From Flavobacterium columnare NBRC 100251 = ATCC 23463 (lineage in GTDB: Bacteria; Bacteroidota; Bacteroidia; Flavobacteriales; Flavobacteriaceae): a stretch of 64,000 nucleotides of DNA. The stretch is taken from NCBI RefSeq assembly GCF_002530675.1, contig NZ_PCMX01000013.1, positions 1 through 64,000 of the forward strand, in the 5' to 3' direction. Made by a program: the position numbers and the translations under genes. Below the pieces are notes generated by a model, which was not told the origin of the DNA, searched no databases, and saw only the letters and a list, made by a program, of their open reading frames with translations. The stretch's first letter is position 1. Each line of letters starts with the position of its first letter. Shown one piece after another: positions 3,001 to 53,721 of the stretch.

Positions 3001-3003
3001 GAC

Positions 3004-4656: not shown

Positions 4657-5324
4657 AATATAGATTTTTTAGCTAAGTCAATAAAGAAGTCAGACACATC
4701 ATCTTTTTCATTAAAGTTAGTAATAGTTTTAAAATGTTGTTTTATAAATTGTTGATGTAATGATCCTTCTACTATGGTAGAAGCTAAACTCTTAGCGTAT
4801 TTATACGATGGATTTATTTCATTAATAATATCAAAAATTCGGTTTATGACTCTTTTATATACCAAGAAAAAACCTTCTTTGTTTTCCTCGTCTACTTCTT
4901 TGGTTAAGAAGGTTTTTGTAAATTCAGAAACGATAATTTTATTTAAAAGAGCTTCATTAATATGGGGGGTATTTGTATCATCTTTTATATTTTGAGAAAC
5001 GATTTGAATAGCTCTTTCTAACTTTTCTATTGAATTGGAGATATTGGTTGTACTAAAAACAATATGATACTCCATCCATGCCCAATACCAAGTAGATAAG
5101 TACAACATCATCTTATGCTTATTTTCGAAATAGCGATAAATAGAACTCTCATTCGATTGAATACGTTCACCTAGTTTTTTGAATGTAAATAATTCAAATC
5201 CTATTTCGTTAATAAGGACGATACTGTGCTCAATGATTTTTCTTCCTAATTCCGAAGTTTCAGGGTCTTTGACATACAATTTGTCATTGATCGCTATTTT
5301 TATATTTGAGAGAAGATGTTTCAT
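4653..5324 (-). CDS. TetR-family transcriptional regulator
   Basis: 223 aa from the ATG at 5324. An upstream TTG at 5342 would give six more residues, but it overlaps a -7-type promoter box, so the ATG is preferred. The N-terminal 60 or so residues contain the TetR helix-turn-helix (..IGFELFTFKKLGERIQSNESSIYRYFENKHKMMLYL read in pieces: GERIQSNESSIYRYFENK). The C-terminal helical domain is divergent, as usual for ligand-binding regions. It is the first gene of the export operon and probably represses its own promoter through the palindrome at 5356-5370. Confidence 0.85.
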   Translation of the reverse strand: MKHLLSNIKIAINDKLYVKDPETSELGRKIIEHSIVLINEIGFELFTFKKLGERIQSNESSIYRYFENKHKMMLYLSTWYWAWMEYHIVFSTTNISNSIEKLERAIQIVSQNIKDDTNTPHINEALLNKIIVSEFTKTFLTKEVDEENKEGFFLVYKRVINRIFDIINEINPSYKYAKSLASTIVEGSLHQQFIKQHFKTITNFNEKDDVSDFFIDLAKKSIL

Positions 5325-5339
5325 CTTTATTCTTTTGAA

Positions 5340-5370
5340 CAAAGATATAAAAAATAATAGTATTACTATT
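5340..5370 (-). promoter_or_regulatory. Promoter and palindromic operator of the TetR-ABC-HlyD-TolC operon
   Basis: On the minus strand TATCTTTG (5347-5340) matches the Bacteroidota -7 box TAnnTTTG. Nine bases upstream is a perfect 15-bp palindrome AATAGTA-T-TACTATT (5356-5370), lying in the spacer where a bound TetR dimer would block polymerase. The promoter match and palindrome are seen directly. Autorepression is inferred from TetR family practice. Confidence 0.6.
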
Positions 5371-5504
5371 GATTTAAAAAGTTAAACTTTTATATAGTTC
5401 ATTAATGATTATTGTGTACAAGCTATTTTTTGGGTATCAAAATGATAAAACGTAAAAAACTAAAAATATAAAAAAGCTTTTTGTAAATTTGGGTAAAAAG
5501 CCCA

Positions 5505-7739
5505 ATGAACAAATACAATTACTTGATAATCTGTTTTTTTTTGTTTTCTATGTGTTTGCATGGACAGGAAAATGCTGAGTTTTATATAAAGAAAATTGTA
5601 TTTTGTCAACACAATAGCCAACTTGTTAATTATCAGTTGACAAGTTATAATAATCTTATTATTACAGCTAATCCTAAAAACTCTCAAGGTCATATAGACA
5701 CTCTTTATAAATTTAAGAAAGGAAATAAAATTATTAAAGAAATTGATTCGTCTGATTATATATTTAAAAAGATAATTTCAAAACAACATTTGTACCAAGC
5801 AGAGAAAATTTCAGTAATCACAAAAAACAATAAAAGGATCAAAGAAGAGATAGTTGCTACCCGTATGGCTGGTTTTAAGGAGCCTATAGCGGAATATTTT
5901 ACATTGCAATTGCATCCTTTTGAATTATACGATCCTAAATTAGAAATAGTAGAAAAAGAATACATAAATCCCATTTCAGAAAAAGGGTTGACTAAATACA
6001 TCTTTTCTGTGACTAATTATGCTTTTGAACAAAACCGTGAACTGGTTCGGATAACATTCGATCCTAAAAATGCCAAAGCTTTGAATCTAGTAAGAGGAGA
6101 ATTGCTTGTAGATACTAAAAATTTTAATATCGCTAAAGCTACTTTTTATACATTAGGAAAAATAGAATGCCATTCAGTTCATTCCTATACATATAGTGAA
6201 ACAGCAAATAATTGGCTTCCTTCACGAACACAATTAATTTTAAAAAAAGGAAATAGTAAATACCCTATAAAAATATTAGGAGAATACATTACTTTTGAAG
6301 ACTCAGAAAAAAAATACAATCCCAGAGGAAAAAAATATGCTACTGATTTTATAGAAATAATCGTTACTACTCAATATTCACAATTAACATTAGGGGATTT
6401 TCCTATAAAAAAAAGATATTTTCCTATATCATTATCTAATAAAGCTACTAAACGAAAAGAGGCTATTTGGTTTGAGTCGTTTAAGGATTCTATAGATAAA
6501 CGAAGTTTGCCTACCTATATTTCCCTAGACAGTTTAATAACTGCTAGGAAATATGAAAACAAACTAAAAATGGGACGTAAAATCATAAGGGGATATTATC
6601 CTATACCTTTTTTTGATATGGATTTGCGATACCTTTTTAAATATAATAATCACGAAGGGGTACGTTTAGGACTAGGAGGTATTACTAATGATTCTTTCTC
6701 TAAGTACTTTAGAGCAGAGGCTTATTTTGGATATGGTACTAAAGATTACGATTTCAAAAAAGGGGGATCCGCTACTTTTTTGTTGGATCGTGCTTCTGAA
6801 ACATGGTTCGGGGTAGGGTATCAAGAGGATGTAACTGAAATAGCTAATGAGAATCTTGAAATAGATAAAAAAACATTTAAAATTTATGATTCAAGACCTT
6901 TTAATTTAACTACTTTTTATAACCATCGAACTCTTAAAATTTTTATAGAAAACAAAATAATACCTAAGACAGAATCTATTCTTCAAGTAACTAGGAGTGT
7001 TATTGCACCTCTATTTAACTATCATTATGAATTAGAGGGTGATTTATATAAAGAATTTTATTTAAATACATTTACATTCTCTATGCAATGGAATCCTTTT
7101 AGTAAATATATGCAAATCCCTAGTGGTAGGATAGAATACAAAAATGAATATCCAAAGTTTACTTTTCAGTTTTCAAAAACAATTCCTAATTCATCGAATG
7201 ACTTGTTTCAGTATAAACGGTATGACTTTCGATTAGAATATTATAAGAAAGTATTTAATAACCATAAAATTGATTTTCAATTAGAGGTGGGTTCTATAGA
7301 TGGTATAGTTCCTATTACACATTTGTATAATCATTCGCCAAATAATTTACAAAAAGAAAAGATGATTGAACGGGTTAACTTTGCAGGAAAAGATAGTTTT
7401 GAAACAATGTTTTTCAACGAATTTTTTTCCAATAAACAACTCTATACGCATATTCGATATCAGTTCCCGAAATGGGAAATAAATAGGCAAATAAAACCTG
7501 TTTTTAATACGGTGCTTAGGTATGGAATAGGAAGTCTTAGTTCGAAAGAAAATCATAAAGAAATTGTTTTCAAAACATTAGAAAAAGGTTACTGGGAATC
7601 GGGTATAGAAATAGCCCAAATCTATAATGGCTTGGGAATATCAAGTTTTTATAGATTTGGGTCTAATCAGCTACCTTCTTTTAAAGATAATCTAGCTATA
7701 AAGTTAAGTCTACAGATTAATTTAGGGTTTGATAATTAA
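5505..7739 (+). CDS. DUF5686-family outer membrane protein
   Basis: 744 aa with an N-terminal signal peptide (about 1-20, ending CLHGQ). Residues 20-330 are a periplasmic domain. Residues 360-744 have the alternating aromatic beta-strand pattern of an outer-membrane barrel, with the family-typical segment YNNHEGVRLGLGG (around 385) and FGYGTKD..KGGSATFLLDR. Many family members begin with a carboxypeptidase-regulatory-like domain, and I do not see a clear one here. Function is unknown. A box TAAATTTG (5484-5491) just upstream may be its -7 element. Its last 18 bases overlap the convergent antiporter gene. Confidence 0.75.
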   Translation: MNKYNYLIICFFLFSMCLHGQENAEFYIKKIVFCQHNSQLVNYQLTSYNNLIITANPKNSQGHIDTLYKFKKGNKIIKEIDSSDYIFKKIISKQHLYQAEKISVITKNNKRIKEEIVATRMAGFKEPIAEYFTLQLHPFELYDPKLEIVEKEYINPISEKGLTKYIFSVTNYAFEQNRELVRITFDPKNAKALNLVRGELLVDTKNFNIAKATFYTLGKIECHSVHSYTYSETANNWLPSRTQLILKKGNSKYPIKILGEYITFEDSEKKYNPRGKKYATDFIEIIVTTQYSQLTLGDFPIKKRYFPISLSNKATKRKEAIWFESFKDSIDKRSLPTYISLDSLITARKYENKLKMGRKIIRGYYPIPFFDMDLRYLFKYNNHEGVRLGLGGITNDSFSKYFRAEAYFGYGTKDYDFKKGGSATFLLDRASETWFGVGYQEDVTEIANENLEIDKKTFKIYDSRPFNLTTFYNHRTLKIFIENKIIPKTESILQVTRSVIAPLFNYHYELEGDLYKEFYLNTFTFSMQWNPFSKYMQIPSGRIEYKNEYPKFTFQFSKTIPNSSNDLFQYKRYDFRLEYYKKVFNNHKIDFQLEVGSIDGIVPITHLYNHSPNNLQKEKMIERVNFAGKDSFETMFFNEFFSNKQLYTHIRYQFPKWEINRQIKPVFNTVLRYGIGSLSSKENHKEIVFKTLEKGYWESGIEIAQIYNGLGISSFYRFGSNQLPSFKDNLAIKLSLQINLGFDN

Positions 7740-9992
7740 TACAGAGGGTAAATTGCTTAACCATAAATTATTAGAAGCGACTAGTTTTTTCCAGCTTTCA
7801 AGACTTATTAGCATTAAATCTTGTTTAACTAAAAATGCTTTTTGAACTTGATTTTCTTTAACTACAGAAATATTATCTGGAAATTCTTTATTTAATGATT
7901 CAATAGCATTTTTTATTAAATAATTATTTTCTAGTTGATGTTTTACAACTACTAAATTTACTTTAGAATTATTATTGTAGACAAATTTTTGAATATAGTC
8001 TACCAGAAAAGCATCTTCCGAACAAAATAAGGGGACAAAAATTTTATCTAAAGATTGCAATTCGTTGTCAGCCAATATTCCCAGAGGCGTTTTATTTTTA
8101 GATATTATTTGCTGGGTTCTCTCGTCAAATATAGAATTGGTAAACAAACCTTCTTTTCCTGTTAATTTGTCTAATAAGCGATCAGGATTGATTAATCGAG
8201 TTGTAAAGCCAATTACTTTTCCTAAAAGCGAACCTTCGAAAATTGATTTTCCTAAACCAACTAATAATAAATCATAATCTCCTTTTCCAGCTACTTCAGC
8301 AATATCAGTTTCTATATCTACAGTTGCTTTGAAAATAGTAGATATTTCTTGATTTAAGCTTTTAGATTCTTCTAAAATAGGAATAAAGGATTCTTTTTCA
8401 TATTCTTCCGTATTGTAACCGTGCATTTCGTCACTTACAGAGAGGTGCATAGCGGTAATAACAGAGCTTTCTTTTTCTTTTTTGATTAAAGCATTGGCTA
8501 CTTTTAGTAAGGATTTGCCTTTTTCGTGATTTCCAAAAGAAATTAATATTTTAAATCTATGGAAACCCTCTGTGATTTCAGGAACAATTTGATCTTTAGT
8601 TTTAAAAATAAAATTAATTAAATCTAAAGCAGGACCTGTCATAAAGGTTGTAACTAGAGCCATTATAACCATCATGGTAAAGATTTCAGAGGTAAGTACT
8701 CCTAGATCATACCCGATATTTAGTACGACCAATTCCATTAGACCACGGGTATTCATCAGAGCTCCAATTATAAAACTATCTTTCCAGGTTTGCCCAACGA
8801 ACTTAGAGGTTAATGCTCCTCCAATAAATTTGCCTGTTACAGCAACTAAGATAATAAATCCTGTTATTTTCCATAAATACGGCTCATTAATTAATCCAAT
8901 TTGTGTTCTTAATCCTGTAAAAACAAAAAATAATGGAAGCAATAAGATTAATGAAACATCCTCAACCTTATCAATGAATATGTGTCTAAACTTGGCAATA
9001 TCAGGCATAATAGCTCCTGTCATAAAAGCACCAAATAAGGCGTGGATTCCTATGATTTCAGTACAGTATGATGAAATAATTAAGGTTAAAAAGAAAATAG
9101 CTACTACAGGTTTACTCAAACTTTCACTTTTTGAATATAAATCACCTACTCTTTTTAAGAAGGGTTTTACCAAGAACAGCATTACTAAAACATAAATGGC
9201 GGCCAGTGCAATTATATATAATGAACTAGCAAAAGTACCTGCTTTTACAATGGCAATAACTGCTGCTAGTAAACACCAAGCGGTTATATCATCAGCTGCC
9301 GCACAAGTAATAACGATTGTTCCTAACTTTGTTTTATGCAATCCTCTTTCTTGTACAATACGTGCTAAAACAGGAAAGGCGGTAATACTCATGGCAATAC
9401 CTAGAAATAAAGCAAAAGATAAGAATTCTACCCCTTGAGGAGCAAATTTATGATATACAAAATAGGCTAATACCATACCTAAAGCAAAAGGAATGATGAT
9501 ACTGGCGTGGCTTATTACCACGGCATCATTGGCTTTGTTTTTTAATACTTTTAAGTCTAACTCCATTCCTATTACAAACATAAAGAGGATTAAACCAATC
9601 TGGCTTAAGAACTGCAGATTGCCTAATGACTCTATTGGAAAGATAAGAGTAGTAAACTCAGGAAAATACATCCCCACAACGGAGGGCCCTAAAAATATAC
9701 CCGCAATAATCTCTCCTATTACGGATGGCTGTCCAATTTTTCTAAAAATCCAACCAAAAAATCGAGCGACTATGACTATCGTAATAATTTGTGCTAATAA
9801 AATAGCTAAAGGATGTTTTACATTATGAATAAGTGATTCTAAAAATTGTCCCCATAATGTATTATGTGAATTAGGAGCTGTAACTTTTCTTCCTATTTCT
9901 AGGTTTTTGCCTTGTTGTACAATCCAGTACATCAAAGCTGTAAAAACTCCAGTAACAGTAAAATAGAAAATAGCGTTTTTAAGTTTTTTCAT
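7722..9992 (-). CDS. CPA2-type cation/proton antiporter with C-terminal USP-like domain
   Basis: 756 aa. One extra N-terminal helix (10-28), then about twelve transmembrane helices (60-450) with the family start GQPSVIGEIIAGIFLGPSVVG in the first conserved helix pair, a CAAADDITAW segment (two Asp in a membrane helix, typical of ion-binding) and HALFGAFMTGAIMP. Residues 480-756 resemble two universal-stress-protein-like cytosolic modules. This is the Kef/Nha layout used for K+ or Na+ against H+. The ion cannot be decided from sequence. It is a single gene, transcribed toward the DUF5686 gene, with an 18-bp antisense overlap at the 3' ends. Confidence 0.85.
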   Translation of the reverse strand: MKKLKNAIFYFTVTGVFTALMYWIVQQGKNLEIGRKVTAPNSHNTLWGQFLESLIHNVKHPLAILLAQIITIVIVARFFGWIFRKIGQPSVIGEIIAGIFLGPSVVGMYFPEFTTLIFPIESLGNLQFLSQIGLILFMFVIGMELDLKVLKNKANDAVVISHASIIIPFALGMVLAYFVYHKFAPQGVEFLSFALFLGIAMSITAFPVLARIVQERGLHKTKLGTIVITCAAADDITAWCLLAAVIAIVKAGTFASSLYIIALAAIYVLVMLFLVKPFLKRVGDLYSKSESLSKPVVAIFFLTLIISSYCTEIIGIHALFGAFMTGAIMPDIAKFRHIFIDKVEDVSLILLLPLFFVFTGLRTQIGLINEPYLWKITGFIILVAVTGKFIGGALTSKFVGQTWKDSFIIGALMNTRGLMELVVLNIGYDLGVLTSEIFTMMVIMALVTTFMTGPALDLINFIFKTKDQIVPEITEGFHRFKILISFGNHEKGKSLLKVANALIKKEKESSVITAMHLSVSDEMHGYNTEEYEKESFIPILEESKSLNQEISTIFKATVDIETDIAEVAGKGDYDLLLVGLGKSIFEGSLLGKVIGFTTRLINPDRLLDKLTGKEGLFTNSIFDERTQQIISKNKTPLGILADNELQSLDKIFVPLFCSEDAFLVDYIQKFVYNNNSKVNLVVVKHQLENNYLIKNAIESLNKEFPDNISVVKENQVQKAFLVKQDLMLISLESWKKLVASNNLWLSNLPSVLIIKP

Positions 9993-41865: not shown

Positions 41866-43167
41866 TTATTTTACAAAAATTTCTTTCAGTTGTCCTATAA
41901 TATTTCCGCTTCCTGAAATCGTAATTTCACCTATTTTATCTGCTATTTTTTCGACGTATTCCATTTCTTTTAATTTCCATAACATTTCGTTTTCTTCCAT
42001 TAATTTAGCTGTGTTTAACATACTTCTCATAGAAGCCGTTTCTTCACGTCTCATAATCATGTTTGCTTGGGCTTTTTTTTCGGCAACTAAAACTTGGTTC
42101 ATGATTTCTTTCATATCTCCTGGTAAAATTACATCTCGAATACCTGCATCCAAAATTTCAACGCCTAATGGTTCTACTTTTGTTTTGGTTTCTACTAAAA
42201 GAGTTTGTGTGATTTCCTCTTTTTTAGTCAACAATTCATCTAAGGTAAATCCGCCTACGTACGCTCTTAAGGCTAATTGCATTACAATATACAATTGCTT
42301 TTCGTAATCTTTATTAGCTATTAAGGCTTTTTCAATAGTTGTAACTTGGTATTTCACAAAAAAGTTAATTCTTAAATTTGCTTTGTCTTTAGTCAGTATT
42401 TCTTGCCCTGAAATTTCCATTTGTTGTTGACGGAGGTCTGCTACTTTTACTTCTAATAGATTTCCGTTGTTCCAAAAATTATAAATTCCAGATTCTAAAA
42501 CTTCAGTCCATTTTCCATTAATAAATAATAAGCCTTTTTCATAATTTAAAACTTCTATTTTTTGAACAAAGGATCTTATTTTAGGATGCTCTAATAATTT
42601 TTTATCTATTTTTTCAATCGTTTCAGTTGCATTCAAATCAAACCATTTAAAATCATATTGGGTACAACTTTTCCAAAAGGCGTATTTACCAGCGGTTAAA
42701 ACTTCTTTGAAATTATCATTTACGTATTGCAAAACGATTTCGTTATCCTTAACTGTTATTATATTTAGTAAAGTTGCTAAATCTGGATGTTCTAATAACA
42801 AATCTAAATTCGTTGGCGGTATAAACTCATTCATCATGTTATAAGTCATAAACTGATAATGGTAAATTCCTTTCCAAAAAGCGTATTTTCCTTTTTTTAA
42901 AACACTTTGAAAATTCTTATTAACAAATTGCAATACTACATCATAATCCGCTACCTCAACCACTTCTAACATTTGAGCTAAGGAATCGTTTGTTAATAAA
43001 AGATCTAGATCCCACGTGGTTTCAAACGGAGTGCGCATATCAAAATAGAGTACTTGTAATTGTGTTCCAAACAAAAAGTGTTTTCCTTCTGTCAAGACTT
43101 TTGTTAGTTTATCATTTTTAAAAACCAAACCTACTTGAAAGGTTTTGATGTTAATTTTTTGTATCAT
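41866..43167 (-). CDS. Slipin-like SPFH/band-7 protein with four N-terminal repeats
   Basis: 433 aa. There is no N-terminal transmembrane helix, unlike classical slipins. Four copies of a 22-residue unit of the pattern xGLxFxNxxxxxVLxxGKxxFW lie at about 12-33, 77-98, 144-165 and 211-232. An SPFH/band-7 domain (about 245-400) follows, with EILTKDKANLRINFFVKYQV and a helical tail. Comparative genomics has linked SPFH proteins of this kind to RtcB RNA-repair operons and a tRNA-like RNA, as a proposed scaffold. Here it is downstream, on the same strand, of the tRNA-like array at 43641-43880. Confidence 0.82.
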   Translation of the reverse strand: MIQKINIKTFQVGLVFKNDKLTKVLTEGKHFLFGTQLQVLYFDMRTPFETTWDLDLLLTNDSLAQMLEVVEVADYDVVLQFVNKNFQSVLKKGKYAFWKGIYHYQFMTYNMMNEFIPPTNLDLLLEHPDLATLLNIITVKDNEIVLQYVNDNFKEVLTAGKYAFWKSCTQYDFKWFDLNATETIEKIDKKLLEHPKIRSFVQKIEVLNYEKGLLFINGKWTEVLESGIYNFWNNGNLLEVKVADLRQQQMEISGQEILTKDKANLRINFFVKYQVTTIEKALIANKDYEKQLYIVMQLALRAYVGGFTLDELLTKKEEITQTLLVETKTKVEPLGVEILDAGIRDVILPGDMKEIMNQVLVAEKKAQANMIMRREETASMRSMLNTAKLMEENEMLWKLKEMEYVEKIADKIGEITISGSGNIIGQLKEIFVK

Positions 43168-43595: not shown

Positions 43596-43640
43596 TTTTT
43601 TTGAATTGAGAATCTTTTTAAAGAGAGATTCCTACTCTTT

Positions 43641-43880
43641 CAATAATGCTACATAAAAAATGTAGTGCTCTAACCAACTGAGCTAACGCAATGAATTGCG
43701 TATCGGATTCGAACCGATGCTTTTGATTACAGAATCCGCCATTCTTCAGCTAAAGGAAGAAATAGGATTCGAACCTACAAAATCAGTATTTTTTGGCAAA
43801 TACTTAAACCATCAAATCAAGTTGCATAGTAAGTTGTAATACGCAGCAAGCGTAACTCTTACCACATTAGTGCTATACAG
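43641..43880 (-). ncRNA. Tandem tRNA-like RNA array with circularly permuted modules
   Basis: Minus strand, 5' to 3'. First a D-like hairpin (43871-43855) and an anticodon-like arm (43855-43840). Then D-like ACTT..AAGT (43822-43802), the arm GTATTTGCCAAAAAATAC (43803-43786), and a T-arm GTAGG-TTCGAAT-CCTAT (43778-43762). A 6-bp helix TTCTTC/GAAGAA (43761-43742) follows with no gap, then hairpin GATT..AATC (43736-43725). Next come a second T-arm ATCGG-TTCGAAT-CCGAT (43718-43702), helix ACGCAA/TTGCGT with a 4-base loop (43701-43686), a canonical D-arm GCTC-AGTTGGTTA-GAGC (43683-43667) and the arm CTACA-TTTTTTA-TGTAG (43665-43649). The acceptor strands pair forward, after the T-arm, so this is not ordinary tandem tRNAs. 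Confidence 0.7.
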
Positions 43881-43951
43881 AAACACCCAACTGGACTTGT
43901 TTGATATTTTGATACATATTTTTTATATTTCTAAGAACTTTTTTCGTTGAA

Positions 43952-43990
43952 CAAAGATTCAAAACAAACTACGTAATTATTTTGCGTAGT
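43952..43990 (-). promoter_or_regulatory. Operator and -7-like element of the tRNA-like array
   Basis: On the minus strand AATCTTTG (43959-43952) lies 7 bases after a 24-bp block (43990-43967). The plus strand of that block contains ACTACGTAA, then TTATTTTGCGTAGT. The two halves form an imperfect inverted repeat around TTAT. The same block, at the same spacing, precedes rtcB (51987-52025). Transcription would begin about 43945, just upstream of the array. Confidence 0.6.
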
Positions 43991-44360: not shown

Positions 44361-44894
44361 TTATTTGTCTTTTAAAAATAGTTCTTCTGCCGGTGTAATA
44401 TCCATAACATTATAAATAGCTGTTTTAGCTATCGTTAATTGATCTAATACGTGCACTAAATTTCCATAATTGGATTGTTTAGATGATTTTACTAAAAGAA
44501 TAAGTCCTTTTTTAGAATTACCCGATTGTTTTTGTATGAGAGTGTTTTTACGCATTACTTCTTTTGCTAAACCGTTATTTTTATATGAAAACCTTTTTGG
44601 TTTTTCAAGAGGTGATTCTAAAAGACCTTGATATAAAATAATAGCATCCTCTTTTAATAATATGGTACATTCTCTATTATAGGCAGTGGTTGGACATCTA
44701 TCATAAATACATTTTCTTTTGCTAGGCATTCCTAAACTTAATCCGTTCGGACGTGATAAAAAAGAGGTCAACATAAAGAACACAATTAATAAAAAAGAAA
44801 TACTTACCATAGCAGTAAGGTCTACTCTTGGGTTACGATTTTGGCATTTACGAGTTATAGGATTTCTTCCAAAGGAATTTCTTGTTTCGCTCAT
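44361..44894 (-). CDS. ExbD/TolR-family protein, orphan
   Basis: 177 aa. A short cytosolic N-terminus is followed by one transmembrane helix (about 28-47). It carries the family motif NPRVDLTAMVSISFLL, whose membrane Asp takes part in proton movement in ExbB/ExbD motors. The periplasmic part is about 125 residues. There is no ExbB or TonB gene in the window, so it may work with a motor encoded elsewhere or be a passenger between the defence genes and the tRNA-like array. Confidence 0.75.
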   Translation of the reverse strand: MSETRNSFGRNPITRKCQNRNPRVDLTAMVSISFLLIVFFMLTSFLSRPNGLSLGMPSKRKCIYDRCPTTAYNRECTILLKEDAIILYQGLLESPLEKPKRFSYKNNGLAKEVMRKNTLIQKQSGNSKKGLILLVKSSKQSNYGNLVHVLDQLTIAKTAIYNVMDITPAEELFLKDK

Positions 44895-44964: not shown

Positions 44965-45228
44965 TTAGGTATATAGTGTATTTCGCATTTTAATAAGTAG
45001 GTCTTCTGCTTGGTTATAATTAGGTTTTTCTTTCAAATTTACGTTATCATAAACCTCCTCTATGGCTTGTAAAAGAGTTTCTGCGGATTGCATTAATTGA
45101 TCATAATTAATTGATCCTGTTTTTATGGCTAATAATTCTTCCCTATTACTAACTCGAATCGTAAGACGAGCGGTTTTACCCATTTGTAATGCGGATTGTA
45201 ATAACCTAATGGAGGCAAGGAGATATTT
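44965..45228 (-). pseudogene. C-terminal remnant of a second repair-type nucleotidyltransferase
   Basis: Directly after the helicase stop codon, in the same frame, the sequence stays open for about 87 codons: KYLLASIRLLQSALQMGKTA, then RVSNREELLAIKTGSINYDQL, then AETLLQAIEEVY. This resembles the C-terminus of RlaP/COG3541-type nucleotidyltransferases (helical, with a REELLAIKxG segment). The NTase core with its GS and DxD motifs is absent. A 72-codon open frame from ATG 45183 exists but is unlikely to be functional alone. The family call rests on recall, not on a search. Confidence 0.55.
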
Positions 45229-46089
45229 TTAACATTTCAAAAAATCTTCTATTGGCAAAACATTTTCTTCTCCAAACCATTTTTTGACATTCTCAATTGC
45301 TTTGTCATTCATATCTGACAATGCTAAAACAACTAAATTTTCTTTTGCTCTTGTACAACAAACATAAAATAGCTTTTGTGTTCTTTCAATAATTTTCTCT
45401 TTATCTTTTGTGTTTTCAAATAAATGTTTAAAACTGTATTTTGTCCAATCCGCATTATCTAATACAACTAAAACATTATCATATTCCGAACCTTTGGTTT
45501 TATGTTGTGTGGAATAAGGTGTAAATCCTTCTAAGTAATTATACAAATTGATAAATTCTTGGTAGGGAACTTGTGCAACCCTATCGTATATATATCCTTT
45601 GGATTCTCTAAAATCGTTTAATGGCTTGTCATTTTTGATAACGATTCCTAATTCATCTGCCTTGTCAATAACTTCCCCAATTGTGATTTTATTGTTTTTT
45701 AAAAGCTTTTCAATATTTTCTTTAAGTTGCTCTTTCTCTTTAATGCTATTTATCTTATATCCAACATTATTCTTTTTCATAATTCTAAAAAATTCAGGGA
45801 AATTTTTATTTTCATAATACGATAAAGTATGCTGAATTTTGAAAAGATGTTTAATCAAATTATCTCGTTTTGAACCTTTCTTGCTTTCTTCATCTTCTAC
45901 TTCTTTTTTATCATCAATAAGATGATCCTTGTCAATATATATTTTTTTTACTTCAATAAAAGGCTTATCCCTAAGTTTTTCATACAATAATTTATTTTCT
46001 TCATTAGAGAGTAATTTGTCTTTTTTACTTACCTTAATTTTAAAATTTATGCTATTAACTATATCTTCTATTGTTTCTAAATCATTTAA
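45229..46089 (-). CDS. UvrD-like helicase (GajB-like), C-terminal part after a frame break
   Basis: About 286 codons in the -1 frame relative to the upstream part. The frame starts LNDLETIEDIVNSINFK at 46089. It carries helicase motif V-like KGSEYDNVLVVLD and motif VI-like FYVCCTRAKENLVVLAL, both needed for UvrD-type activity. There is no ATG near the start; the first candidate is a TTG at 45987. It therefore makes sense only as the continuation of the protein encoded at 46086-47393, joined by a -1 shift in the A8 run (46090-46097). Confidence 0.75.
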   Translation of the reverse strand, partial: LNDLETIEDIVNSINFKIKVSKKDKLLSNEENKLLYEKLRDKPFIEVKKIYIDKDHLIDDKKEVEDEESKKGSKRDNLIKHLFKIQHTLSYYENKNFPEFFRIMKKNNVGYKINSIKEKEQLKENIEKLLKNNKITIGEVIDKADELGIVIKNDKPLNDFRESKGYIYDRVAQVPYQEFINLYNYLEGFTPYSTQHKTKGSEYDNVLVVLDNADWTKYSFKHLFENTKDKEKIIERTQKLFYVCCTRAKENLVVLALSDMNDKAIENVKKWFGEENVLPIEDFLKC

Positions 46090-47393
46090 TTTTTTTTAGT
46101 AACATTAGACACTTTTTCCTTTAATTTGCCTAATAAGTCATTCTCGAATTCTAAAAGCTGAAAATCTTCTTTTTTTAATTTTTTAATTTTGTTAAATTCT
46201 TCGAGAGCTATTTTATTAGAAAGTATTTCTTCCATTAAATATGGTTGAGCTTTTAAATCTGATTTATTTACAACTTCGTCAAATGTCATATTTTCTTCAA
46301 AAACTAAATTATTTTCTTTGATTCCTTTTACAATGTCGGCTTTAAGCGAGAGTATCGGTTCTTTATCATAAATATTCATCAATGTTGAAAAATTTGCCTG
46401 TGATGCAATAAGATTATGGGTTAAGTTTAATTCTTTAGTGTTTTTAGAATCGTCAAAATTCCATTTTACATCAATATCAAGAGTAGAAAGATACTTTTTG
46501 AGTTTTGGTAAATCAGATTTTGTTGAATGTAAGAATAAAACATTACCTTCTTTTACATTTCCATTCGTAAGCATGTTGGGAGCTTTTAGATCTTTTGAAG
46601 CCTGCTGTGTTACCGTATCTGTGCGCAATTTATTCGCTAAATCAATCACTTTTTGAGGATTTCTTCTGTTTTCAGCTTTAATAACTTTTTTTAGTTTAGT
46701 ATCTTCTTTTTTTAAATACTCATCTAAATTACCAATTCTGTCCTCATAAATGGATTGCATTGCATCACCAAAAAAACCAATTATTGTTTTGTTCATTTTT
46801 TTAGAACGAGATAAATGATTTAATAGAATTTCAACAACAAGCTTGTCGGTATCTTGATATTCATCAACAAAAATAAAATTAAACTTGTCATTGATGTTAT
46901 CACAAAGTTTAGGGTAGTTAGCAAACATAGCTTCTGCCAAAATCAACAATTCATCGTGTGAAATAATGCCTTCTGTTAACCTAACAAATTCTTTATATTC
47001 AATCTTCTTCCCTTCAAAAATGGATATGTCGGGATTATCCAATTGAAAACTGGTTATACTATCATTTTTAGCTAAATCTATAACACATTTTTTAAGCTCT
47101 CTTTGAAAATTTTTAATACAATCCCAAAGAAAATCGTGTATAGTTGAAACTTTTAATTTTTTATGATTAACCCTTTCTTCGATTTCTTTTACTGCTGCAT
47201 TAGTATAGGTAATACAAGCGATTTGCGCTGTAGGTTGTTCTTCCAGAATTTGTCTGATAATAGAAACCAAAGAATACGTTTTTCCACTTCCTGCACCACC
47301 ACTTAATAAAAAATGGTTTCGGTTATCTATATGTTGTAAAATTTGAAAAACTTCAGGCTGTTTGTCTTTTAGTTCTAGTCTTTTCGTAACCAT
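46086..47393 (-). CDS. UvrD-like helicase (GajB-like), N-terminal part
   Basis: 435 aa. Walker A SGGAGSGKT (31-39), motif Ia ITYTNAAVKEIEERV, motif II FVDEYQDTD, motif III GDAMQSIYEDR and motif IV ENRRNPQKVIDLA fit superfamily 1 helicases of the UvrD/PcrA/Rep type. It overlaps the OLD nuclease gene by 19 bases, the arrangement of class 2 OLD (Gabija) systems. The frame stops right after the A8 run, and the remaining motifs are encoded in the -1 frame downstream. Joined, the protein would have about 720 residues, longer than the roughly 500 of the best-known GajB. Confidence 0.8.
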   Translation of the reverse strand: MVTKRLELKDKQPEVFQILQHIDNRNHFLLSGGAGSGKTYSLVSIIRQILEEQPTAQIACITYTNAAVKEIEERVNHKKLKVSTIHDFLWDCIKNFQRELKKCVIDLAKNDSITSFQLDNPDISIFEGKKIEYKEFVRLTEGIISHDELLILAEAMFANYPKLCDNINDKFNFIFVDEYQDTDKLVVEILLNHLSRSKKMNKTIIGFFGDAMQSIYEDRIGNLDEYLKKEDTKLKKVIKAENRRNPQKVIDLANKLRTDTVTQQASKDLKAPNMLTNGNVKEGNVLFLHSTKSDLPKLKKYLSTLDIDVKWNFDDSKNTKELNLTHNLIASQANFSTLMNIYDKEPILSLKADIVKGIKENNLVFEENMTFDEVVNKSDLKAQPYLMEEILSNKIALEEFNKIKKLKKEDFQLLEFENDLLGKLKEKVSNVTKKN

Positions 47394-49573
47394 AATAATC
47401 CTTCTCTAATATAATTTGGTATTTGCCAATTTGAAAATTTTTCATCACTATTTAATAAGATATCTATTGCAAGTCCGGGCTTTTTTTTAACTCCTTTTTC
47501 AGCTAATTTAAATGCATCTTTATATTTTATGAATTTATTATGCCCAACATCAGTTAATTCTTGAAAAGTGTTGTTACAAATAAAATCTTGATTGATATGA
47601 AAAAAGACATCTTCAAAACTATATGCGTGATAACTTTCTTCTTCTGTTTGATAAGTAATTAATAAATTACCTAAAGCGTTTTGTTTCCATTTTTTATCAA
47701 TCTCTTTTTTTAATATTTTATCTTCAAAATTTAATTTTTTGAAAAAATCTAGGTCATTTGGTGTTTTTCCAAAGTAATAACGAAGTGAAGAGTTTGATGT
47801 TTTATCTGCTCTAATATGATTAGCAGGGCATTTTTTTTGTTCCATCACAGGTGTATTATTACCATCTTTGTCTTTTTCAAACTTTAATTTACCATCTTTA
47901 TCTTTTGCTTGTTCTTTATAAAAACTATCAATATCAGTTATTATTAAAGATTTTACACCAATAAAATCAATAAACTTTTCAAAAATCTGAGAATGCGCGC
48001 CAACTTCAACAATTGAAATATTTTGAGATAATAATTTAAGTTCATTTTCTGCTATTGGTTCTTCATTATCTATTTTTTGCATCATTGCTGGTAATAAAAT
48101 TCTTTCGGTATCACCTTCTATAAAAATTGCTTTATCAGCAAAAAATAGTTCGGTTCTATTTAGTGTTAAATACTGTTTTAAAAAACGGTAGTTTTTCCTT
48201 CCTTCTTCTCCTTCTCTATTATATTCCTTTTCTAAGTCTTTTAAATTTTTTGCTTTAATGTCATTAATAGCTTCTTTCTTCAAATATTTTATTGTATTAA
48301 AATCTTGGCAATTCGCAACAATGTGTGAAGAGTGTGTACTAATAATATATTGAAAAGGTTGACTTTTTATAACTTTCCCATTTACATCTTTTTCTATTGG
48401 AATTCCTTTATTTAAAAGATTCGCAATGTTTTGAATAAAGACATACTGCATTTGTGGATGTGTATGGGCTTCGGGTTCTTCAATTAATAATAAATTTATA
48501 CTCGCTGGATTTTCGTCTCTTTTTCGCGCAAATTCTGAGACTAAAATTTTGATTTGGAAAATCATACTGATAAGGTTCATATAACCTAAACCATTATACT
48601 GTTCAGGAAAATCGGTCTCATTATGATTATAAACTACCGTAGTATTTCCTTTCAATAACTCCTTTTGTTTTAAGTTTGAAATAATTTTGATTATGGATTC
48701 TTCTTTTTTTATGCCTCCAAACTCTCTTACAGTATCAATTGTTTCACTAAATAAATCCTTATAAACTTCACTTAATTTTTCATCTGTTTCTTCTATTGCC
48801 TCATTGAATTCTTGGATTTTTTCTTCATCAGCATCATTTTTCTCACTTCTTTCATATATTTCTGATGTTTGTGTAGATAAGGTTTTATCGTTATCCTTAT
48901 TTGTTACTCCTCTTTTAGCATCTATATATTTGAAATTAATGATGTCTTTCAAATTATTTTTGAGCTTGCTTTTTTCTAAATCATTAAAATTTGATTCAAG
49001 GATTATATTGTTATCATAATCGTAGTCAATACTTTTCCATCTTCTTTTAAAAAATTTGTCTTGATTGGTTTTGAAAAAGTATTCAAAAGTTTTGGCTAAA
49101 TAATTTTTCTTTTTAGCTACCTTTTCTTTTTCATTATTAAGAAAAGATTTATACTCTTTTCGCATTTCTTCATAATCATTGAAATGCAAAGAATATTCAT
49201 AACCCAAAACAATCTTGTTGTGATCAGGTTCTAAATCCATCATTAAATCAAAGATTGTACTGGTATTATCATCTCCATCATAGAATAAAACTAATCTTAA
49301 CTTGATGCCGTAGAGGGTTTTGTCATATTCCTCTTTATCTTCAATTTGTTCAGGACTTGTAATGAGACTTTCAATTTCTTTTTTATAGTCTAAATTAAAA
49401 TCTTCCGCTTTAATTTTATCGCTTTCGCTATTGATAAATTTTTCTAAGCACGTTAAAATAGAAGTCTTTCCTGTATTATTTTTTCCTAATACTAATGATA
49501 AAGTTTTTTCTAAATCTAACTTAAAGTCTTTTAGCAACCTGAAATTACTAATGTGTATTGATTCTATTTTCAT
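47375..49573 (-). CDS. OLD-family ATP-dependent endonuclease (Gabija GajA-like)
   Basis: 732 aa. The N-terminal ABC-type ATPase has Walker A GKNNTGKTS (30-38), a coiled-coil insertion (about 130-290), Walker B LLLIEEPEAHTHPQ and a switch STHSSH. The C-terminal TOPRIM nuclease domain shows FIEGDTERILLPA (catalytic Glu) and IITDIDSF (DxD). This plus a UvrD-like neighbour defines class 2 OLD / Gabija anti-phage systems. It is longer than the commonly described GajA of about 580 residues. It starts 9 bases after the rlaP stop, so it may now be read from the RNA-repair operon. Confidence 0.85.
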   Translation of the reverse strand: MKIESIHISNFRLLKDFKLDLEKTLSLVLGKNNTGKTSILTCLEKFINSESDKIKAEDFNLDYKKEIESLITSPEQIEDKEEYDKTLYGIKLRLVLFYDGDDNTSTIFDLMMDLEPDHNKIVLGYEYSLHFNDYEEMRKEYKSFLNNEKEKVAKKKNYLAKTFEYFFKTNQDKFFKRRWKSIDYDYDNNIILESNFNDLEKSKLKNNLKDIINFKYIDAKRGVTNKDNDKTLSTQTSEIYERSEKNDADEEKIQEFNEAIEETDEKLSEVYKDLFSETIDTVREFGGIKKEESIIKIISNLKQKELLKGNTTVVYNHNETDFPEQYNGLGYMNLISMIFQIKILVSEFARKRDENPASINLLLIEEPEAHTHPQMQYVFIQNIANLLNKGIPIEKDVNGKVIKSQPFQYIISTHSSHIVANCQDFNTIKYLKKEAINDIKAKNLKDLEKEYNREGEEGRKNYRFLKQYLTLNRTELFFADKAIFIEGDTERILLPAMMQKIDNEEPIAENELKLLSQNISIVEVGAHSQIFEKFIDFIGVKSLIITDIDSFYKEQAKDKDGKLKFEKDKDGNNTPVMEQKKCPANHIRADKTSNSSLRYYFGKTPNDLDFFKKLNFEDKILKKEIDKKWKQNALGNLLITYQTEEESYHAYSFEDVFFHINQDFICNNTFQELTDVGHNKFIKYKDAFKLAEKGVKKKPGLAIDILLNSDEKFSNWQIPNYIREGLLWLRKD

Positions 49574-49582
49574 TTTGTTTTA

Positions 49583-50320
49583 TCAAACTTTTAAAAACCC
49601 ATCCAATTCCTCCGCCATCTTCTCATCACTTCCCAAACTATTCGCATGTTCTTGGTTAAAAACCACCGTTTCCTGCAAAAAATCAGTAATCAAAACCTCT
49701 TTTGGGTGCAAATACTTTTCGTCTTGGTTGGCTTTTATTTGCATTAATTCTTTTATTTTTTCTTGTAGGTTATGTGGTGCTATAGGCAATAATTCCATAA
49801 AATCTACTGGCGGAAAACGGTTCTTTTCTATAATCCATTTTCCTGCTAGAGCCGTACGCAAAGCGTAGAAATAACTTTTGAGTTTTACTTCTTCGGCTTG
49901 GCATACTTCCATGAAATTTTTGGTGGTTCCCAAATAATGATGCAAACACGCCACTGGCGAAAAACAATCTTTTGCCAAGGCTCGCATTTGGTTTATAAAT
50001 GTTTCATTTTCATAATACACCACAGGCGAAGACAACCATTCCAACAAAGGTGCATTGGATTTTGCTAATAACCTTACGGTTTTCCGTAAGTCCCAACCGC
50101 TACCGTCTAAATTGTCGGTGGTCATAAACTCGATGGTATCAGGTTGTTCCCAAAGGGATAGGTAATAGTCTAAATCGTGTTTGTAGATAAAACGAATGTC
50201 ATAATCACTATCGGGTGAGGCAAAGCCCCAAGCACGACTGCCTGATTCGACCGCATAGAGGATTTCTACACCTTTTTCTCGTTCGATTTCTTTTAGTTTG
50301 TTTAGTGTATTTGTTTGCAT
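49583..50320 (-). CDS. RNA-repair nucleotidyltransferase of the RlaP family
   Basis: 245 aa from the ATG at 50320; a longer frame to 50407 would add a hydrophobic stretch overlapping the tRNA-like RNA. The pol-beta-type core is at the N-terminus: ESGSRAWGFASPDSDYDIRF gives the GS and DxD motifs. WDLRKTVRLLAKSNAPLLEW and the C-terminal helices are typical of PF10127 (RlaP), often found with RtcB. It probably adds or edits nucleotides at broken RNA ends before ligation. It lies downstream of rtcB, separated by the tRNA-like RNA. Confidence 0.8.
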   Translation of the reverse strand: MQTNTLNKLKEIEREKGVEILYAVESGSRAWGFASPDSDYDIRFIYKHDLDYYLSLWEQPDTIEFMTTDNLDGSGWDLRKTVRLLAKSNAPLLEWLSSPVVYYENETFINQMRALAKDCFSPVACLHHYLGTTKNFMEVCQAEEVKLKSYFYALRTALAGKWIIEKNRFPPVDFMELLPIAPHNLQEKIKELMQIKANQDEKYLHPKEVLITDFLQETVVFNQEHANSLGSDEKMAEELDGFLKV

Positions 50321-50410
50321 GTTTCTCAAATTTAATAAAATTAATACTATAAAACCGTATAGAAATATGCGGTTTGTTTCTAAATATTTATCTAAATGTT
50401 TTCCCAATTT

Positions 50411-50500
50411 AAACTACGAAGTCTTACTGTCGCTAAGGGAGGATTTGAACCTCCGTATTTGGTTACACCTGACAGGTTTTGTAAACCATCAGTGTAAAAA
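50411..50500 (-). ncRNA. tRNA-like RNA between rtcB and rlaP
   Basis: Minus strand, immediately after the rtcB stop. A long hairpin TTACACTGA / TCAGGTGTAA with one bulge (50497-50463) has an inner stem GGTTT/AAACC. A perfect T-arm GGAGG-TTCAAAT-CCTCC (50454-50438) follows. With no gap comes a 4-bp helix CTTA/TAAG with a 7-base loop (50437-50423), then a small hairpin ACT-TCGT-AGT (50422-50413). It is again T-arm, closed acceptor-like helix, D-like arm. It is not a complete canonical tRNA: there is no 7-bp acceptor enclosing the arms. Confidence 0.6.
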
Positions 50501-51922
50501 TTAATCCTCACGACTCCCGTCATCGGCCATACGAACCATTTTAGGCGTGAATTTTGCAACCACATCAACTAAATCTTGTTGTGATGCCATCACTTGGTTG
50601 ATATCTTTATAAGCCATAGGGGCTTCGTCTAAACCTGCACCAATAAGGGTTACGCCGTGATCTTTCAAAATGGTTTGCATATCACTTTGGGTAATACTTT
50701 TAATAGCTTGGGTTCTGCTCATTTGTCGGCCTGCACCATGCGATGCCGAATTAATGGCTTTTTCATCTCCTTTTCCTCTAACCAAAAAACCTGGTGCTGT
50801 CATGCTTCCAGGAATAATTCCCATGACTCCTTTTCCTGCAGGGGTTGCTCCTTTTCGGTGTACAATTACTTCTTCTCCGTTATAGATTTCTTTCCAAGCA
50901 AAATTATGATGGTTTTCTACTTTGGCTAAAACCGTTGCTCCTAAAGCTTTTCCTATTTTATCATGAATAATTTCGTGACATGCTGAGGCATAATTACCTG
51001 CCAAATTCATGGCTATCCAATATTCTTGACCTAACTCAGAATTCAAATCTAAATAGGCTAAATTTTTCGCTTCGTGGGGCAGTTTACAAACTTGCTTTGC
51101 CATTTTTGTATAATGTCCCGCAATGGTTGCTCCAAATCCTCTTGATCCTGAATGTGTTAAAAGCGCCACATATTTTCCTTTTGGAATATTTAAAACAGCA
51201 TCGTCTTTTTCAAATTCCATGATTCCAAATTCAACAAAATGATTTCCACCACCAGAAGTTCCTAATTGCGACCAAGCTTTATCCTTTAAATTATTTAAAA
51301 AGGCATTTTCATTAAATGCTTTATTTTCTAATACGTGATGATCACTTTTGTATTGTCCGTGATAACCATGACCGGCACCAAATTTAGAATGGGCAACTAA
51401 TTCTCTTTTAAATTTAGCTTCGTTTTCATAATAAAACAATTCTGGAATATCATAGACTGATAATGCCATTCGACAACCAATATCCACACCAACACCGTAG
51501 GGAATTATCGCATTATTTGTGGCTAAAACTCCTCCAATAGGCAAACCGTACCCTTGATGTGCATCAGGCATTAAGGCACCAGCCACAGTAACAGGAAGTT
51601 TCATGGCAATTTCCATTTGCTTTTTTGCGCCTTCCTCAATGTGTTTTTCTCCGTAAAGTGCAAAAGATTCTGGAGTTGGATTTAACGAAATGAAATCTTC
51701 AGGCTTTTCATTGGCTTGTTCTATCAGTGCCGAAGCCAACGTGCTGAAATTTTTATCTTCTAGGTAGTTTTCTGGTGATTCCAAAACTTTTTTATAATTT
51801 TCGATCATTTCTTCGCGAGTAAACCCTAATCGCTTTTTATTTATTTTTAATGCAACTCCTAATGCTGAACCAGATTGAAAACCTAATGCTAGTAAGTCGT
51901 TTCCGTTTATTGGTGTATTCAT
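50501..51922 (-). CDS. rtcB: RtcB-family RNA ligase
   Basis: 473 aa, near the usual 400-480. Manganese and nucleotide-site segments are visible: PDAHQGYGLPIGGV, YGVGVDIGCRM, GTSGGGNHFVEFG, LTHSGSRGFG, the HRKGATPAGKG loop, and SHGAGRQMSR with the His that carries GMP. It joins RNA 2',3'-cyclic phosphate or 3'-phosphate ends to 5'-OH ends. No archease is seen nearby. It starts a leftward unit (rtcB, tRNA-like RNA, rlaP, then the defence genes) and is divergent from the HD and WYL genes. Confidence 0.93.
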   Translation of the reverse strand: MNTPINGNDLLALGFQSGSALGVALKINKKRLGFTREEMIENYKKVLESPENYLEDKNFSTLASALIEQANEKPEDFISLNPTPESFALYGEKHIEEGAKKQMEIAMKLPVTVAGALMPDAHQGYGLPIGGVLATNNAIIPYGVGVDIGCRMALSVYDIPELFYYENEAKFKRELVAHSKFGAGHGYHGQYKSDHHVLENKAFNENAFLNNLKDKAWSQLGTSGGGNHFVEFGIMEFEKDDAVLNIPKGKYVALLTHSGSRGFGATIAGHYTKMAKQVCKLPHEAKNLAYLDLNSELGQEYWIAMNLAGNYASACHEIIHDKIGKALGATVLAKVENHHNFAWKEIYNGEEVIVHRKGATPAGKGVMGIIPGSMTAPGFLVRGKGDEKAINSASHGAGRQMSRTQAIKSITQSDMQTILKDHGVTLIGAGLDEAPMAYKDINQVMASQQDLVDVVAKFTPKMVRMADDGSRED

Positions 51923-51986: not shown

Positions 51987-52046
51987 CAAAGATTTTAAAT
52001 TAAGTGCGTAGTTATTTTGCGTAGTGAAATTTAGTTTTTATTTTTG
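51987..52046. promoter_or_regulatory. Divergent rtcB / HD-WYL promoter region with shared operator
   Basis: For rtcB (minus): AATCTTTG (51994-51987), then the 24-bp operator (52025-52002) with two TGCGTAGT boxes 13 bp apart (52005-52012, 52018-52025). For the HD-WYL genes (plus): TTTG (52016-52019), a 19-base spacer and TATTTTTG (52039-52046), a good promoter whose -33 overlaps the operator. The block matches the tRNA-like array operator in 32 of 39 positions. Confidence 0.65.
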
Positions 52047-52698: not shown

Positions 52699-53721
52699 AT
52701 GGCTCAAAACAAAAACGCCCTAATTCGATATAAAACCATCGATAAATGTTTACAAAACAAATATCGTATGTGGACACTTGATGATTTAATAGAAGCCTGT
52801 TCTGATGCGTTGTATGAATATGAAGGAAAGGAAAACTCCGTAAGCAAACGCACAATTCAATTGGATATCCAATTGATGCGTAGTGAAAAACTAGGCTACA
52901 ATGCGCCTATCGAAGTCTATGATAAGAAATACTATCGTTATGCGGATGAAGATTTTAGTATTACTGATATTCCGTTAACAGAAACTGATATTAATGTTTT
53001 AACAGAAACGGTTTCGATGTTGAAGCAATTTAAAGATTTTTCATTATTTAATGATGTTTCGGATATACTGCAACGTCTTGAAGACAAAATTTACGCTGAA
53101 AAAACGCATACGCAACCCATCATTCATTTGGATAAAAATGAGAATTTGAAAGGGTTGCATTTTTTGGATGCAATTTATCAAGCCATTGTTAAAAAAGTGG
53201 TTTTAATTATTACTTATAAATCATTCAAATCTAGAGAGGCGCAAACTTTTAATTTTCATCCATTTATTTTAAAAGAATTTAATAATAGATGGTTTGTTGT
53301 GGGGAAGAAAAAAGGAAGCCAACCCATTTCAAACTTGGCTTTAGATAGAATCATCACAATTGATTACGATTTTAGCATTCCTTATTTAGATTATTCTTTT
53401 GATGCTGATGCTTATTATAAAAACGTCGTAGGTGTTACGGTAAATAAGGGCATGCAAGCTTGCGTCATTCAGCTTTGGGTGGATGCTTATAATGCACCCT
53501 ATGTTATTACTAAACCGATTCATACCACACAACGCATTATTCAGCAAAATGAAGATGGTAGTATCATTGTTAATTTATTTTTAAAAGAAAATTTTGAATT
53601 AGAACGTATCATTCTTGGGTTTGGTGCCAGTATGAAAGTATTAAAACCAGAGCGTTTGCGTAAAAGAATGAAATTTATTCTAGAAAAAGCACTTGAAAAT
53701 TATCCGTCTATTTTGGCATGA
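52699..53721 (+). CDS. WYL-domain transcriptional regulator
   Basis: 340 aa. The N-terminal winged helix (about 1-80, with RTIQLDIQLMRSEKLGY) is followed by a WYL domain (about 150-240) with the fold segments ITYKSFKSREAQTFNFHPF, FNNRWFVVGKKKGS and LALDRI. A WCX-like extension reaches the C-terminus (LERIILGFGASMKVLKPE). WYL proteins sense nucleic acids or nucleotides and control RNA/DNA repair and defence loci. It is the best candidate to bind the TGCGTAGT operator at 52002-52025 and 43967-43990. Confidence 0.85.
   Translation: MAQNKNALIRYKTIDKCLQNKYRMWTLDDLIEACSDALYEYEGKENSVSKRTIQLDIQLMRSEKLGYNAPIEVYDKKYYRYADEDFSITDIPLTETDINVLTETVSMLKQFKDFSLFNDVSDILQRLEDKIYAEKTHTQPIIHLDKNENLKGLHFLDAIYQAIVKKVVLIITYKSFKSREAQTFNFHPFILKEFNNRWFVVGKKKGSQPISNLALDRIITIDYDFSIPYLDYSFDADAYYKNVVGVTVNKGMQACVIQLWVDAYNAPYVITKPIHTTQRIIQQNEDGSIIVNLFLKENFELERIILGFGASMKVLKPERLRKRMKFILEKALENYPSILA

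Follow-up and report, generated by a model that had tools for sequence, protein, structure and literature searches.

Chained tRNA-like modules, most likely circularly permuted, in a predicted leader RNA of SPFH genes from Flavobacterium columnare and other Bacteroidota

RESULTS

The RNA locus and its copy in F. columnare

The window, the whole stretch of 64,000 nucleotides (nt) that was analyzed (contig NZ_PCMX01000013.1 of Flavobacterium columnare NBRC 100251, positions 1 to 64,000), contains two chained tRNA-like modules upstream of a gene for an SPFH/Band_7 protein. On the minus strand, rtcB and rlaP are located upstream, followed by Gabija-like genes, an ExbD-like open reading frame (ORF), the RNA, and the SPFH/Band_7 gene. 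A gene for a WYL-domain regulator is located beyond rtcB and rlaP in divergent orientation (Table 1). The predicted order of elements in a module, which is T-arm, acceptor helix closed by a short loop, U8-A9, D-arm, and anticodon stem, is that of a circularly permuted tRNA. As predicted from the alignments, module 1 is usually open at its anticodon stem, similar to a Y RNA, and the last module ends with a closed anticodon arm.

TABLE 1 Elements of the predicted RNA and neighboring features in the window
Feature	Position	Strand	Basis or remark
Operator-like inverted repeat CTACGCA-N7-TACGTAG before the RNA	43969..43989	-	Followed by −7-like box ATCTTTG, 43958-43952
Conserved 5' structured domain of the leader RNA, CAAACAAGTCCAGTTG ... 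CAACTTGATTTG	43813..43903	-	Alignment and alifold, 19 Flavobacterium leaders
Hairpin AGTATTTGCCAAAAAATACT immediately 5' of module 1	43785..43804	-	Sequence; hairpin at same place in leader alignment
Module 1 T-arm	43762..43778	-	Sequence, strict motif search
Module 1 closed acceptor-like helix TTCTTC-CTTTAGCT-GAAGAA	43742..43761	-	Sequence; covarying helix 3
Remnant of module 1 D/anticodon arms and linker	43719..43741	-	Pairwise alignment; 25 nt missing compared to L103
Module 2 T-arm	43702..43718	-	Sequence, strict motif search
Module 2 closed acceptor-like helix ACGCAA-TTCA-TTGCGT	43686..43701	-	Sequence; covarying helix 6
Module 2 D-arm, GG in loop; U8 A9 at 43685-43684	43667..43683	-	Conserved in relatives
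Module 2 anticodon-like arm, loop TTTTTTA (UUU at 34-36)	43649..43665	-	
3' hairpin GAATCT...AGATTC	43610..43631	-	Sequence; comparable hairpins by eye in relatives
SPFH/Band_7 gene	41866..43167	-	Pfam 6.6e-30; N-terminal beta-repeats and SPFH domain; model of relative L079 and fold search
Gabija-like defense genes gajA, gajB (two ORFs)	45229..49573	-	PADLOC; outside the RNA system
rlaP nucleotidyltransferase	49583..50407	-	Pfam 7e-79
rtcB-rlaP gap: T-arm, then D-arm-like stretch; separate, imperfect unit	50411..50500	-	33.3 bits, broken pairs
rtcB RNA ligase	50501..51922	-	Pfam 8.7e-83
Operator-like element TACGCA-N7-TACGCA before rtcB	52005..52023	-	−7-like box ATCTTTG, 51993-51987
WYL-domain regulator, putative controller	52699..53721	+	Pfam WCX/WYL; homologue near the locus in several relatives

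The initial annotation of this sequence had claimed two minus-strand T-arms (43778-43762 and 43718-43702), each followed at zero gap by a 6-bp closed helix with a loop of 8 or 4 nt, and in the second unit a D-arm plus an arm with 5 bp, a 7-nt loop, and TTT at positions 34 to 36; all these elements are present. A strict search of both strands of the window for 5 of 5 T-stem pairs, TTCRA, and, with no gap, a helix of 5 bp or more yielded exactly two sites, modules 1 and 2. The same search yielded a mean of 0.22 and a maximum of one site in 60 dinucleotide shuffles. ARAGORN detected no tRNA in the window, and Rfam at its cut-offs gave no match for the RNA.

When module 2 was folded alone, the minimum free energy (MFE) structure contained the proposed T-arm, closed helix, D-arm, and anticodon arm, the latter with one extra pair (6 bp, 5-nt loop). 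As a single sequence, the whole region was moderately stable (z −2.27; 3 of 200 shuffles were equally stable). Its MFE structure paired module 1 otherwise, and the centroid retained the four arms of module 2 plus the closed helix of module 1. The structure is supported mainly by comparison. A pairwise alignment with the F. davisii locus L103 showed that 25 nt are missing from module 1 of the window; the gap takes away the whole D-arm and half of the anticodon arm, on its 5' side. Intact loci are found, for example, in Flavobacterium hibernum DSM 12611 (L083) and Chryseosolibacter histidini (L116).

Distribution of the chain upstream of SPFH genes

A search of 100 relatives yielded 23 genomes matching SPFH. 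The 15 genomes with strong matches (E <1e-80) were counted as SPFH genomes, and eight with weak or partial matches (G009, G011, G016, G019, G030, G038, G056, and G083) were not counted. T-arms like those of the window were present upstream of SPFH in 15 of the 16 loci L007-L021 and L030; L019 had a single T-arm, and the contig ended in L011. A larger set, L079-L158, comprised the best 80 of at least 590 SPFH relatives from a profile search of named genomes and included Flavobacterium, Chryseobacterium, Tenacibaculum, Aquimarina, Winogradskyella, Emticicia, Chryseosolibacter, Chitinophaga, and other genera. At least two T-arms were chained upstream of SPFH in 73 of these 80 loci, with three T-arms in six of the 73. 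This number is corrected from a first count of 74 T-arm pairs, which held a few mis-picked ordinary tRNA pairs (L086, L087, and L132); the chain positions of L086, L088, and L098 were assigned by hand. In the remaining seven loci, where no chain had been detected, inspection by eye indicated one module in L085, L124, L142, and L147, apparently two in L132 and L151, and none in L138. The RNA in the window is thus, as predicted from these sequences, one copy of a conserved non-coding leader RNA located before the SPFH gene in Bacteroidota.

The Rfam model RF02553 (YrlA) and a two-module model, R1, were rejected as census tools because both match tandem ordinary tRNAs (94 of 100 and 294 of 296 genomes, respectively). 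The R1 matches listed with more than 100 bits and a length of 142 to 158 nt came, as a rough figure, from at least 9 of 296 genomes of the phylum. A plasmid search gave no match. A viral collection contained three distant SPFH loci (L159-L161): L160 and L161 had no T-arm followed by a closed helix, and the two such T-arms of L159 sit in ordinary tRNA genes. That viral-collection contig, L159, carries at 1902-8029 an array of 36 tRNAs upstream of the SPFH homologue and no permuted modules.

Secondary and tertiary covariation

Alignment A2 comprised 60 rows, the window plus 59 of the 67 two-module loci; L113, L119, L120, L125, L127, L131, L140, and L146, mostly with long or unusual first hairpins, had been left out beforehand. 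Alignment A3 comprised 32 well-behaved rows of A2, so that its figures lean upward. A closed helix of at least 5 bp followed the first T-arm, T1, in 56 of 74 cases and the second, T2, in 60 of 74. When the strands were swapped between loci, these numbers fell to 9.4 (standard deviation [SD] 2.6) and 8.1 (SD 2.4), respectively, and only 23 of 320 T-arms of ordinary tRNAs were followed by such a helix. RNAalifold predicted 25 pairs in the 60 aligned sequences, 21 of them with double changes. In the full model of 39 pairs, 89.7% of the cells were paired, compared to 65.6% after shuffling and 37 to 45% after sliding. Both sides had changed in 573 cells (171.8 shuffled), and 35 of the 39 pairs showed at least one such change (30.0 shuffled). 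The open stem, helix 1, was a covarying helix of 5 bp with 78.1% of the cells paired, and the wider 5' domain paired mostly within itself.

In tRNA, base 15 of the D-loop forms the Levitt pair with base 48 of the variable loop. Read as permuted, module 1 had G-C or A-T at 15-48 in 57 of 59 sequences (p 2.6e-11) and module 2 in 54 of 59 (p 1.3e-12 for the 55 that have R15 and Y48), p values that ignore the relatedness of the sequences. In the conventional reading, with the D-arm of module 1 assigned to T2, there was no association (p 0.96). The bases U8, A14, GG in the D-loop, T54-T55-C56, and A58 were fully or almost fully conserved, with less strictness in module 2. The covariation of the Levitt pair is thus confined to the permuted reading. 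At the level of these alignments, the modules are therefore true circular permutations of a tRNA; they most likely adopt an L shape, with the tRNA elbow conserved.

A conventional tRNA with acceptor strands enclosing the other arms was rejected: it shows no Levitt association, ARAGORN makes no call in the window, and a 5' acceptor strand pairs with the 3' strand of the next unit at a mean of 2.07 of 5 positions (55 cases), compared to 5 of 5 in its own hairpin, the latter by construction. In some relatives, ARAGORN or Rfam call a tRNA within the chain, such as an ARAGORN tRNA-Leu in L086 and L088. Automatic annotation can therefore label parts of the chain as a tRNA gene.

The circular permutation, the compensatory changes in T stems and closed helices of homologues, and the link to SPFH genes, all brought up in the initial annotation, were thus borne out. 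Its count of "at least two, perhaps three" chained units was right for the two or more units found in most loci; the possible third unit, at 50411-50500, is separate, imperfect, and outside the chain. This unit reached 33.3 bits on the family model, compared to 95 bits for the module pair, with several pairs broken. Among six rtcB-rlaP gaps examined, such a T-arm and a similar D-arm-like stretch were present in the window and in L070 only; judged from their sequences, both are possibly a further permuted unit.

Terminal anticodon arm and neighboring tRNA genes

The terminal arm possessed, as aligned, at least 4 of 5 stem pairs in 43 of the 60 sequences, with U33 in 41 and 18 different triplets, TTT occurring in 13. 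In 17 rows, no terminal stem was aligned, although some of them show a shifted arm by eye (L079-L096). For 15 sequences, which we take to belong to the family Weeksellaceae, the mean pairwise difference was 0.64 at positions 34 to 36 versus 0.04 in the stem. Identity with 7-nt loops of ordinary tRNAs from the same 80 loci was found for 29 of the 43 terminal loops; permuted triplets gave a mean of 18.4 identical loops with a maximum of 25, and none of 2,000 permutations reached 29. The loop of the window, TTTTTTA, is among the 14 of 43 without an identical tRNA loop in the set. Because 29 loops are identical while the stem is steady and the triplet variable, the terminal loops look as if they had been exchanged as units for genuine tRNA loops.

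In the 1.14 Mb of the 80 loci, ARAGORN called 341 tRNAs, with at least one in 56 loci. Nearly all were co-directional with SPFH (337) and upstream of it (332), and 312 had 6 to 7 acceptor pairs; a few calls are misread pieces of the chain. Upstream of the RNA, and counted in these 80 loci only, tRNAs for Asp, Tyr, Pro, Lys, Leu, Phe, Cys, and Gln were frequent and those for Ala, Gly, Thr, and Val rare.

Leader RNA and operator-like elements

An inverted repeat of the CTACGCA-N7-TACGTAG type matched once, versus zero in 100 shuffles; it is followed by ATCTTTG, which we take to be a −7 box of the Bacteroidota type. With a loose pattern, 46 of the 73 loci had an element of the same type at most 500 nt upstream of T1, compared to 28 of 565 control windows; the 46 include poor palindromes (L126, L144, and L153). 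In 19 Flavobacterium leaders, aligned from the promoter-like box to SPFH and 520 to 897 nt long, an own script without shuffle control gave 134 consensus pairs, of which 83 showed one or more double changes. The consensus comprised the 5' domain and long-range helices after the modules, with pairs reaching to about 40 nt before the start codon. The modules thus seem, from these alignments, to form the center of a larger structured RNA, several hundred nucleotides in length.

Partner genes and SPFH protein

RtcB was encoded in 14 of the 15 SPFH genomes versus 20 of 85 others (p 3.7e-7) and RlaP in 5 of 15 versus 7 of 85 (p 0.016). WYL, SPFH, and rtcB genes were adjacent in 4 of 16 regions fetched from relatives (L066, L075, L076, and L078). 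In the loci L033 and L037, a TROVE gene, a YrlA-like RNA with T-arm and D-arm, and rtcB (partial in L037) are located side by side, the RNA scoring below the YrlA cut-off of Rfam. TROVE/Ro60 occurs in Flavobacteriales at these two loci and in genomes G008, G049, G088, and G096; G011, one of the uncounted genomes with a weak or partial SPFH match, also has TROVE.

Comparison of a structural model of the SPFH protein from the relative L079 with known structures ranked stomatin and HflK first. Major vault protein (MVP) matched this model across repeats and SPFH domain (Foldseek E 6.9e-10; VIA Z 12.1 over 206 residues, root mean square deviation 5.2). The N-terminal repeats alone gave no match at E <0.001, with a best Z of 6.2 (erlin) and MVP rows at Z 3.9 to 4.6. 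The modeled protein is reminiscent of MVP in having beta-repeats before the SPFH domain. The protein of the window is 68 residues longer than that of L079, and tandem beta-repeats precede its SPFH domain. In F. davisii L103, the matched SPFH range 7001-8298 contains 28 stops in the tested frame and no single open frame. The ExbD-like ORF (44361-44894) and a 72-amino-acid ORF (44965-45183), both on the minus strand, have relatives in the L103 locus, and the two ORFs of gajB are perhaps the result of a frameshift.

DISCUSSION

The explanation favored here, with moderate confidence, is a conserved SPFH-leader RNA of chained, permuted tRNA modules that would provide, together with SPFH, a docking and bait function. 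The presence of the chain in most of the loci, the covariation, the Levitt pair, the co-occurrence with RtcB and RlaP, the operator-like elements, and the co-directional tRNAs support this explanation, as does an external parallel, the TrcR regulon of Anabaena (PMC10272220). RNA damage or translation stress would cause the WYL-type regulator to release rtcB-rlaP together with the RNA-SPFH unit. The RNA, whose acceptor ends are not free, and an SPFH oligomer would form a tRNA-shaped docking and bait surface, which may draw tRNA-acting factors such as anticodon nucleases, RtcB/RlaP, and modification enzymes. By analogy, this partnership might correspond to that of a Y RNA with Ro60. Only tentatively, the explanation may be extended to a multi-headed tRNA-mimic RNA with exchanged anticodon loops that would be induced by stress and serve an SPFH cage as bait and as a platform for the repair of cleaved tRNAs, with SPFH and Ro60/Y-RNA platforms as alternatives among species of one genus.

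Several points weigh against this explanation. The bait and docking roles are what we infer. The copy of module 1 in the window is, from its sequence, damaged by a deletion, although module 2 is intact. One SPFH genome, G047, has no RtcB match, and within the fetched flanks of the 80 loci RtcB was found in 29 and RlaP in 6, so that the operon link is loose. TROVE/Ro60 was absent from all 15 SPFH genomes, including that of the window, and present in 6 of the 85 others; chance explains this difference (p 0.59), which gives no support to a mutual exclusion of Ro60 and SPFH. SPFH with the chained RNA and Ro60 with a Y RNA may be alternative partners of RtcB within one genus.

The terminal arm may instead be a decoy or sensor for anticodon nucleases, a possible but doubtful reading in which it shows swapped-in loops to toxins that cut the RNA instead of tRNA, or in which the cut reports damage by splitting the leader from the SPFH message. 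The variable triplet above a near-constant stem in the 15 Weeksellaceae sequences and the number of loops equal to tRNA loops, above every permutation, agree with this reading, and Hughes et al. 2020 suggest that the tRNA-like domain of YrlA could competitively inhibit an anticodon nuclease (PMC7790460). However, the set contains no identical tRNA loop for 14 of the 43 loops, an anticodon loop is usually missing from module 1, loops from related genomes are not independent, and the accessible portion of the same paper reports no YrlA fragments detected in Salmonella (PMC7790460). A cis-acting leader, with the chain as a 5' untranslated region that controls SPFH expression by sensing tRNA-binding proteins or uncharged or damaged tRNA, is rather unlikely. 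The position directly upstream of SPFH on the same strand, the promoter-like element upstream of the RNA, the long-range pairs of the Flavobacterium consensus extending almost to the start codon, and the yjdF riboswitch as an example of a tRNA-like leader (PMC9142559) are in its favor, but a switch would need less than several hundred structured nucleotides that comprise two or three modules and anticodon loops of varying sequence.

Processing of the RNA as a permuted gene into a functional tRNA, with RtcB joining the anticodon ends and RNases opening the closed acceptor loop, would agree with the nearby RtcB and with the existence of permuted tRNA genes (PMC3978253). This is very improbable, as acceptor loops of a few nucleotides leave little space for end processing of the usual kind, module 1 in most cases lacks an anticodon loop, and the triplets are not conserved. 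Even less credible is an origin by chance or as random decay products of ordinary tRNA genes, the alternative named in the initial annotation. The locus is rich in tRNA genes, module 1 of the window is damaged, and the unit at 50411-50500 is imperfect, but the comparison with shuffled sequences, the conservation over several families, and the covariation at both levels speak against it. For the RNA family, random decay is ruled out by the compensatory changes in T stems and closed helices of homologues and by the covariation of the Levitt pair.

The favored explanation, an SPFH-leader RNA with a docking and bait function, suggests that permuted tRNA mimicry is not limited to Ro60-bound Y RNAs and exists in a chained form beside a second scaffold, SPFH. 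Through the exchanged anticodon loops, the role of such mimics becomes directly testable, be it as bait, sensor, or dock for enzymes that damage or repair tRNA.

Comparison with known systems

In Anabaena, TrcR represses an array of 26 tRNAs plus rtcB, and the slipin gene is up 42-fold without TrcR (PMC10272220). As at the SPFH loci, a tRNA array, rtcB, and an SPFH (slipin) gene are thus combined and rise together upon loss of the repressor, with translation stress relieving the repression. TrcR is a ribbon-helix-helix protein, the candidate regulator in the window a WYL protein, and the term "tRNA-like" is absent from the accessible portion of the TrcR paper (PMC10272220). The rtc locus of Pseudomonas aeruginosa also holds an SPFH gene (PMC13086221). 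The yjdF riboswitch resembles the RNA in having a tRNA-like fold in a leader; it is, however, one ligand-binding unit, and its named permutants were engineered (PMC9142559). YrlA occurs in RNA-repair operons (PMC7790460), and bacterial Y RNA superposes on tRNA by circular permutation (PMC11472068).

YrlA (Rfam RF02553; PDB 6CU1) shares with the modules the T-arm, the short capped acceptor helix, U8-A9, and the D-arm in the same order, plus the tRNA elbow. At a laxer threshold, cmscan matched module 2 of the window to YrlA over T-arm, capped helix, and D-arm with 31.1 bits (E 2e-4); L087 reached 40.8 bits and a TROVE-linked candidate (G024:C57:86816) 43 bits, all below the RF02553 gathering score of 69 bits. 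Burroughs and Aravind are said to have announced in 2016 an SPFH/Band-7-associated "novel tRNA-like molecule" in RNA-repair systems. The RNA described here shares with that molecule its location beside SPFH in genomes that also carry RNA-repair genes, and both are probably of the same RNA class. The permutation and the SPFH link are therefore probably known in outline, the former from the Y RNA (PMC11472068). No description of chained, permuted tRNA modules at SPFH genes was found in the accessible literature. As far as this literature could be searched, the chaining, the tertiary covariation, the loop exchange, and the co-directional tRNA arrays are new. Different from YrlA, the SPFH-linked RNA chains two or three modules, the last one with a closed and variable anticodon arm; the open stem of its module 1 covers, in the alignment, only about 5 bp, where YrlA has a long basal stem formed by its 5' and 3' ends, and its neighbor is SPFH, in genomes without TROVE among the 15 counted.
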